From Siphlonurus alternatus (taxonomy: Eukaryota; Arthropoda; Insecta; Ephemeroptera; Siphlonuridae): a stretch of 64,000 nucleotides of DNA. Positions 59,401 through 63,365 of this stretch are shown piece by piece. Numbering within the stretch: the first letter of the stretch is position 1; every line of letters begins with the position of its first letter. The position numbers were made by a program, and so were the translations under genes. The stretch is from assembly GCA_949825025.1 (NCBI GenBank), contig OX463788.1, positions 27,165,036 to 27,229,035 of the forward strand, given 5' to 3'. The notes under the pieces are model-generated. The model saw only the letters and a list, made by a program, of their open reading frames with translations. It was not told the DNA's origin and did no database searches.

Positions 59401-62400
59401 ATTTGTTCATTAATTTGTAAAGTTCATACAAATTATTATACCAAGCATACCCTTTGCATGATTTTATTTTTTATTTTTTTTTTATTATTATTATTATTTT
59501 TTTTTTTTTTTTATTCAAAGATTTTAAAGTATTACAGAAAAGCAGAATAAAAAATATTGTTTCATAGAAAATTGGTATTAAAAATAAAAACTGTATTGCT
59601 GATCTAAATTATTCAGATCAAATAATATGTGCAATATTTTGATTATATAATATAATAGTATACTTAATTAAATAATCATAATATTGGATACAGTTTATAA
59701 ATAAATTAAAGATGCATTTCGGAGACGAATTAAAAAAGAAAAAAAAAAATTAAAATTTAAGAATCTGATGAGTATTATTTTTTCATATTTTTTTTTTTGT
59801 TTTCCCTTTAAATTCCTTTAGATTTATTAAGGTTCAGCTCTTAAGGGGCCCTAGCTCTCTGATTTACTGGGGGAGGAGGGGGGGGGGGGGGGAAGCCTTC
59901 CGTATATTTTAGGATCTTAATATAGGCGAATGGGGGTGTGATCATATTAATCAAGATCCAGGAATGCTTAATTGGTTAGAAAATATGACTATGAAAAGAA
60001 TGATACTGATTTATTTAACTTGCCTTTCAATAAACCCATCCCTCATGCTACTGAGTCTATCTTGAAGATTGGAAATGAACTGAGGAGATTCACTGTCAGG
60101 TGCCGAATTAACTGCTGGCTGGGCTGGGCTTGGGGTAGATAAGTCTATTGCAGCCTCCCCTGACTGTGTTGCTTCCACAGGAAGGTGCAACGTTTGAGGC
60201 AACACAGGAATATGTGTATGTAATGTGAGGGAGGCCAATGGTGGTGGAGACGAGGAGCTAGAAGCTGCCAATGGTTCTGAGTCACTTGGCTCAGTAGCTT
60301 CTTCTGCCTCGTCCTCTTCATCCTCTGCTTCTTCCTCAACAGCAGAAGCAGCAGGAGTAGATTCAGAGTGGTGAGTTAAGTGTGCCTCTTCAGAAGCACC
60401 ACTTAAAGCTGCTCTTGTAGCTGGATCATTGAGCATTCTTGCCAAAACATCAGTCATTCGTTGCATTAGTGTTGCTTGTAAAGTTGGTCTCACTTGAGCA
60501 ATTGGTTCTGTAATTGCATATAAGCATATATATTATACAACCACTATCATGACTGAATGATTCCACATCTAGAAAAGTGAAGTTTAGTATCAGTTCTTAC
60601 CTCCTCTACGTCCCCCCTCTCTCTCTGGTCTTGCATTAGGCCCAGTATCAGACCAATCTCCCCTTAAACGCAAGCGTTTCACAGGAGGAGCCACTCGGGG
60701 ACCAGCTTTTCGTGCAGAATCCAAAAGATCGAAATTACAACGCAGTGAAATACTGCTCAGATCCTGAAAGGAAGCCAAGTGCATTTTCAGAAAGCAATAA
60801 ATTGTTAAGATTAATACAGAATCAGAGAGGGAATCCTAATGTTATTATAACAACTGCAATAAGATATTTAATGTTATTATATATATGTTAAAGTGGTATA
60901 ATAAATTCTCATTGTCCTAAAAATTTAATTATTTGAAAAAAATCGAACTAAGCGATATTTATTTGTTTAAAAATAGATAGAAACACATATATGATAGAAA
61001 AAGATTTGTTGGGAAGGGAGATAGTTCGAGCTTTTAGCCGTCAGTGACCCAGCAAAAAGAGAAAAATTAATTAAAACAACGCTATGCGTGTATATTAGGT
61101 TTGACTCGCCGCTCGTTTTAGAGAGAGAGAGGGATTTTTTTGGCTTGATCAGCTAGTTTTTGCTAGCAAAATCGTCACACAAATGATACATTTGGTGCGC
61201 CACTCTCTAGCCATGGACAGCTGTTTCGGCCTACTTGGCCTCATCAGCATGGCGAGGAGAGAGAGGCAGCAGCTCCCAGCCAGGTCTACATGAGAGCAAG
61301 ACTATCGAGCTACTGCCAAAGTAGCAGAGTTCGCGCGGCCTTTTATACCGGCGATCCGAGTCTCGCAATTATAGCGCGACTCTTCATTGGCTGCTACTTT
61401 GTGGGCGCCAAAAGTTTAAATATGTAACGCTATCGCAGCAAAAACCATTGACAAGCCAGGGATTTGAAATAAAAGGTAGAGATAGTGGGATTTGATAGAG
61501 GGTAAAAGATGGACAACACAGGAGAAGGAAAAGGAAGAGAAAATCGAACTAGCGATATTATTTAATTATTTGAAAAAAATCGAACTAAGCGATATTTATT
61601 TTTTTAAAAGTAGATAGAAACACATATATGATAGAAAAAGATTTGTTGGGAAGGGAGATAGTTCGAGCATTTAGCCGTCAGTGACCCAGCAAAAAGAGAA
61701 AAATTAATTAAAACAACGCTATGCGTGTATATTAGGTTTGACTCGCCGCTCGTTTTAGAGAGAGGGATTTTTTTGGCTTGATCAGCTAGTTTTTGCTAGC
61801 AAAATCGTCACACAAATGATACATTTGGTGCGCCACTCTCTAGCCATGGACAGCTGTTTCGGCCTACTGGGCCTCACCAGCATGGCGAGGAGAGAGAGGC
61901 AGCAGCTCCCAGCCAGGTCTACATGAGAGCAAGACTATCGAGCTACTGCCAAAGTAGCAGAGTTCGCGCGGCCTTTTATACCGGCGATCCGAGTCTCGCA
62001 ATTTTACCCTCTATCAAATCCCACTATCTCTACCTTTTATTTCAGATCCCTGGCTTGTCAATGGTTTTTGCTGCGATAGCGTTACATATTTAAACTTTTG
62101 GCGCCCACAAAGTAGCAGCCAATGAAGAGTCGCGCTATAATTGCGAGACTCGGATCGCCGGTATAAAAGGCCGCGCGAACTCTGCTACTTTGGCAGTAGC
62201 TCGATAGTCTTGCTCTCATGTAGACCTGGCTGGGAGCTGCTGCCTCTCTCTCCTCGCCATGCTGATGAGGCCCAGTAGGCCGAAACAGCTGTCCATGGCT
62301 AGAGAGTGGCGCACCAAATGTATCATTTGTGTGACGATTTTGCTAGCAAAAACTAGCTGATCAAGCCAAAAAAATCCCTCTCTCTCTCTCTAAAACGAGC

Positions 62401-63365: not shown

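Follow-up and report, generated by a model that had tools for sequence, protein, structure and literature searches.

A 1,520-bp insertion (60924-62443) was found in the window, that is, the whole 64-kb stretch of DNA that was analysed. It is probably an ORF-less, non-autonomous Penelope-type pseudo-LTR (pLTR) element that was inserted by an enzyme supplied in trans, with internal priming on both sides; this reading rests on one insertion in the 64-kb window, and we give it a probability of about 0.6. The element fits a known kind, the Penelope/retrozyme-like hammerhead elements, with some unusual details. The initial annotation had named the same class, a non-autonomous hammerhead retroelement of Penelope or retrozyme type with a target-site duplication (TSD), and this class is supported by the anatomy.

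The insertion is located between two direct 13-bp copies of ATTGTCCTAAAAA, the left at 60911-60923 and the right at 62444-62456 (both plus strand), the latter followed by an A-rich run. Both copies are exact and are the only exact ones in the window, which confirms the flanking repeats described in the initial annotation; the chance of an exact 13-bp match at one fixed pair of positions is ~5e-8. Within the insertion, three copies of a unit were identified, two direct and one inverted, as had been proposed, although they are unequal in length. Unit A (60924-61560; minus strand, ribozyme sense) is the complete 637-bp unit. Unit B (61561-62003; minus strand), a direct copy of 443 bp, is 5'-truncated at the inner junction, and unit C (62002-62443; plus strand), an inverted copy of 442 bp, is without the 5' part and without the tail. 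B and C are joined head to head with a 2-nt overlap (TT), and on the minus strand, where A and B have their ribozyme sense, the inverted C comes first, followed by the truncated B and the complete A. The "tail" is a 144-nt segment at the outer end of A (60924-61067; minus strand) and is missing from the outer end of C. Thus, the combination by which Penelope-like elements are recognized, direct and inverted copies arranged head to head and bordered by a TSD, is present at this locus.

The three copies are 98.9-99.7% alike, and the insertion is seemingly young. Besides differences in the length of a CT repeat, A differed from B by 5 substitutions in 443 aligned positions and from C by 2 in 440, and B differed from C by 1 in 299. 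A variant of loop II was common to B and C and was not found in A.

The inverted repeats are long (388 nt, 99% complementary), as they would be in a DNA transposon of foldback or MITE-like type that carried the hammerhead-like motif only incidentally. This origin is very improbable, given the 13-bp TSD, the E-values of the hammerhead motifs (3.7e-6 and 1.3e-5), and the outer ends of the insertion, which differ in that the tail is found at one end only, so that the inverted repeats are not terminal.

Hammerhead motifs with intact cores were detected in unit A (61210-61253, minus strand; RF00163), with predicted cleavage after GUC, between 61216 and 61215, and in unit C (62256-62299, plus strand; RF00163), with predicted cleavage between 62293 and 62294. 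Both consist of CUGAUGA, stem II (GGCC/GGCC), GAAA, CAGCUG, and UC, with GCCAUG/CAUGGC as stem I, and thereby show the conserved core, the three stems, and the open stem I of a type I hammerhead. The corresponding motif of unit B (61843-61886, minus strand) is degenerate and falls outside this type, its core being CUGGUGA (A to G). The initial annotation had assigned a CUGAUGA hammerhead to each copy, which holds for A and C but not for B, for which no Rfam match was listed at E<=5 in a 1.8-kb local search. In the same search with the Rfam model Hammerhead_1 (RF00163), A scored 33.8 bits (E 3.7e-6) and C scored 32.1 bits (E 1.3e-5). The covariance check suggested in the initial annotation therefore had a divided outcome: both scores are narrowly under the gathering score of 34 bits, and a default Rfam scan lists neither motif, whereas the E-values together with the intact cores of A and C argue against a chance match. 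When the whole window was scanned at E<=1, A was listed (E 1.3e-4) and C was absent. The pattern CTGATGA-N6-30-GAAA-N2-14-GTC was found twice in the window, whereas 100 shuffles averaged 0.11 matches and never reached two; the two matches (A and C) are, however, copies of each other. Exact scans of viral and prokaryotic contig collections with strict and looser hammerhead patterns returned 0 matches each, which says little here.

The folding predictions concern single motifs and pairs of motifs. Stem III plus its closing pair is the palindrome ACAGCUGU, and helix III is a single C-G pair closed by AGCU, a palindromic tetraloop. When the fold was constrained to the hammerhead, the 6 pairs of stem I were followed by a 4x1 internal loop and 6 more pairs. 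In the MFE structure of the 76-nt monomer, which is not a hammerhead, CUG of the core is paired with CAG of stem III; the energy of the hammerhead fold is worse by ~6 kcal/mol (-28.1 versus -34.1 for C and -28.6 versus -34.6 for A). Compared with shuffles, the monomer MFE (77 nt) showed a modest gain (z of -2.0 for C, -2.8 for A, and -1.8 for B). The unconstrained MFE structure of two intact copies was a double hammerhead, in which stem III had 8 bp and both cores were open (-73.1 kcal/mol for A with A and -72.1 for C with C, as against -69.2 and -68.2 for two separate monomers). When the mutated B was paired with A, the optimum was a different fold (-75.9 versus -72.6). Single motifs are thus predicted to misfold and two intact copies to form a double hammerhead, in a two-copy model in which neither tertiary contacts nor the linker of ~600 nt that would separate the copies in a real transcript is represented. 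With only one extra pair and a palindromic tetraloop, helix III resembles that of the dimer-type hammerheads of newt and axolotl in the available text of PMC7229834, and the double-hammerhead fold, predicted here only, resembles that of the amphibian motifs. The unit itself is different from theirs, and a 4x1 internal loop of stem I occupies the place where loop 1 might be.

These features bear on whether the insertion is a metazoan non-LTR retrozyme, whose tandem transcripts would be cut by the hammerheads, circularized, and copied into the genome in more than a single round, leaving A plus a partial B. This origin seems unlikely, although several characters are shared with the metazoan retrozymes of PMC7229834, as far as the available text describes them: ORF-less tandem units, a type I hammerhead, a TSD, a GC content of the full unit below 45% (42% here), and a helix III like that of axolotl HHR_Amex1. 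In addition, unit A folded as a 637-nt circle had a strong predicted structure (-167.3 versus -135.5 +/- 6.7 in 60 shuffles; z -4.8). In contrast, animal retrozyme RNAs are ~170-400 nt long and in tandem (PMC7229834), whereas the unit here has 637 nt and an inverted copy, and the word "inverted" occurs nowhere in the main text of that article. A retrozyme would also have at least two active ribozymes per strand; at this locus, as read from the sequence, one of the two direct ribozymes is broken in its core, and each strand carries one intact core (A on the minus strand, C on the plus strand). Release of a unit-length RNA by two cuts is consequently not expected from this copy, and its unit-length excision appears unlikely. 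The suggestion in the initial annotation that the RNA is processed to unit length or circularized is thus unsupported for this copy. The difference between A and B (5/443) may reflect different source units or later mutation and does not decide on the retrozyme origin.

The coding capacity of the unit is small. No ATG-started ORF longer than 45 codons was found in the unit on either strand (longest, 45 codons), and the ORF for a telomerase-like RT plus GIY-YIG endonuclease by which Penelope elements are defined is missing from it. Because this ORF is absent, the element, judged by its letters, is not a Penelope element proper and is at most a non-autonomous dependant. Units A and B abut without an ORF between them, and so the template was probably ORF-less already. 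A 33-codon ORF is located in unit A (61149-61250, minus strand), whose first two ATGs fall within stem I and the core of the ribozyme. Candidate promoter elements of unit A, recognized by their letters, are a TATAAAA box (61341-61347, minus strand), whose start lies 100 nt upstream of the start of CUGAUGA, and a CCAAT motif (61386-61390, minus strand). On the sense strand of unit A, CCAAT is thus at nt 171, TATAAAA at nt 214, and CUGAUGA at nt 314, and the predicted cleavage falls after nt 345.

Alternatively, the insertion would be a one-off, pLTR-only by-product, with no family of its own, that arose by a template jump or truncation from an autonomous Penelope element elsewhere in this genome. 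According to the available portion of PMC3846280, foreign sequences between pLTRs were moved in trans and solo pLTRs are reported in Adineta, and a Penelope ORF could have left its start behind as the 33-codon ORF that opens within the ribozyme. We consider such a by-product quite improbable: two units abut at the full 637-bp period, whereas recombination between pLTRs would leave one, and no Penelope coding sequence was recognized in the window by a Pfam scan of 6 of the 14 listed ORFs and one exon piece. Further, the segment 48670-48744 resembles the tail of the unit (77% over 77 nt, 49.1 bits, compared with 41.9 bits for the best of 1000 shuffles; 0/1000 as high) and may be a decayed relative of it, which speaks for a repeated family, though an autonomous family fits equally.

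The whole insertion lies in a GT..AG intron of 2441 bp (60764-63204, minus strand), delimited by its splice sites and by exon reading, in a DCAF6-like animal gene. Among the best 120 of 332 matches to the exon at 52671-53240, homologues were named DCAF6 or nuclear receptor interaction protein, with a top identity of 72% and 68% for Ladona fulva. The two exons flanking the intron presumably also resemble DCAF6. Units A and B are in sense with this gene, and the intact ribozyme of A is consequently sense-oriented in the intron, as it would be if the hammerhead had a host role in processing the DCAF6 pre-mRNA like the conserved intronic hammerheads of amniotes (PMC7229834, available text). A host role is nevertheless extremely improbable, as the insertion is seemingly young, with nearly identical copies and a TSD, and its monomer is predicted to misfold.

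Several other repeats were observed in the surroundings. The same intron contains a near-perfect palindromic foldback (62787-62997; arms of 95 nt, 94% complementary), probably a second mobile element. LINE-like ORFs are present between exons of the DCAF6-like gene (55344-58492, minus strand), with Pfam matches to RNase_H in 55344-56207 and RVT_1 in 56255-57364; the Pfam scan of 57365-58492 gave no match. This RT, the only one found, is followed by RNase H and was therefore taken for a LINE. Among the best 120 of 147 matches to the RNase H ORF, the top one (50%) was on a contig labelled as an Aeromonas MAG, probably mislabelled; the best named animals reached 39-41%, and the named matches were mainly insects and spiders. 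By the matches to the exon and to this ORF, the host is an animal, perhaps an arthropod. Diverged 5S rRNA-like sequences were detected at 32968-33081 (46.3 bits) and 1577-1689 (37.0 bits; gathering score 38) and are possibly 5S-derived repeats; apart from the hammerhead, the Rfam matches in the window comprised these 5S rRNA sequences, two odd families, and models of microRNAs, and a single 5S match alone reached its cutoff. A tRNA-like repeat (GCTCCTTGGTGTAGTGGTTAGAGCAT...) was noticed by eye at 63655-63990, with two inverted copies flanking a TA run, and is perhaps a tRNA-derived SINE; ARAGORN called no tRNA. Long tandem arrays were found at 2850-4416 (units of 39-352 bp), 9541-10376 (79 bp), 11748-12332 (141 bp), and 13367-14323 (143-154 bp), the last two of which look like inverted versions of one repeat.

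The positions of the insertion ends bear on how the Penelope-type element would have been inserted. TAATTAA occurs only twice in the 637-nt unit, at nt 488-494 (UAAUUAA site 1; 61067-61073 in unit A, minus strand) and at nt 630-636 (site 2; 60925-60931, minus strand, at the outer end of A), and the site corresponding to site 1 forms the outer end of C. The last position of C is nt 493, with an uncertainty of up to 3 nt since the TSD likewise begins with ATT, and A ends at nt 637 (uncertain by 1), the spacing between the two end sites being 144 nt. Both ends of this single insertion thus fall on the only two UAAUUAA sites of the unit, a coincidence that was noticed post hoc. Of 200,000 randomly drawn pairs of ends, 0.45% had a 7-mer in common within 2 nt, in a comparison devised after the ends had been seen. 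With the same limits (one insertion, post hoc), the two UAAUUAA end sites are reminiscent of a Penelope element in which reverse transcription starts at two internal sites.

In the available portion of PMC3846280, Penelope insertions have two pLTRs and an adjacent inverted pLTR, most commonly head to head, the pLTR carries TATA/Inr, and the tail is optional. The present insertion is similar in its two direct and one inverted repeats, head-to-head junction, TSD, TATA box, and optional tail. Penelope-like elements of the Penelope/Poseidon clade and the Penelope families of Adineta, whose pLTRs carry minimal type I hammerheads, are accordingly among the closest known systems. In certain Penelope copies of Adineta, the inverted pLTR or the TSD is missing (PMC3846280, same portion), and the direct plus inverted layout with a TSD is typical of Penelope, not obligatory. 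The insertion differs from Penelope elements in having no RT/GIY-YIG ORF between its repeats, and from the cases given in the same text in its dimensions: the TSD is 13 bp here versus 8, 9, and 10 bp in the examples, the unit is 637 bp versus 181-218 bp for the pLTRs of Adineta, and the end spacing is 144 nt versus a tail of 30-40 bp. For the anole Penelope element PAc, the available text of PMC11167929 reports that the ORF begins at stem II of the hammerhead, and the ATG within the hammerhead of unit A is a likeness to it. The PAc enzyme cuts and extends both target strands, reverse transcription starts at two internal sites with no difference between strands, and the ribozyme is dispensable for insertion in vitro and cleaves only with protein (PMC11167929, same text). 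In the titles and beginnings of abstracts covered by our literature search, no ORF-less Penelope-type hammerhead element was described; Cervera and de la Pena 2014, which lies outside this coverage, may describe similar ones.

From these parallels, we infer the following course for the insertion of the Penelope-type element. The template would have been a multi-unit RNA, sense on the minus strand, whose transcription probably began at the TATA box present in each unit, and a Penelope-like RT/endonuclease acting in trans would have copied it. This enzyme would have cut both strands of an AT-rich site in the intron with a 13-nt stagger and primed one cDNA at each of the two cuts, with synthesis beginning internally in the RNA at one or the other UAAUUAA site. 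Priming at site 2 would have given units A and B, and priming at site 1 the inverted unit C. Joining of the two cDNAs head to head would have left B and C 5'-truncated. Any activity of the hammerhead would be mainly that of a double hammerhead formed by two copies in tandem.

This element bears on the question of which enzymes mobilize the hammerhead-bearing non-autonomous elements of animals, for which Penelope elements are named as a strong candidate in the available text of PMC7229834. An ORF-less element with a Penelope-type head-to-head structure and with ends at a signal repeated inside the unit would make mobilization by Penelope directly testable with purified enzyme, and would reveal what the ribozyme contributes when mainly the double hammerhead folds. 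Tentatively, the element may be a Penelope-dependent parasite standing between a pLTR and a retrozyme, with a small RNA, a hammerhead acting as a dimer, and two UAAUUAA signals for the start of reverse transcription, which would allow a Penelope enzyme to begin on both target strands simultaneously and to insert multimers joined head to head. If that possibility is true, such a parasite would be the missing link for the mobilization of animal retrozymes.
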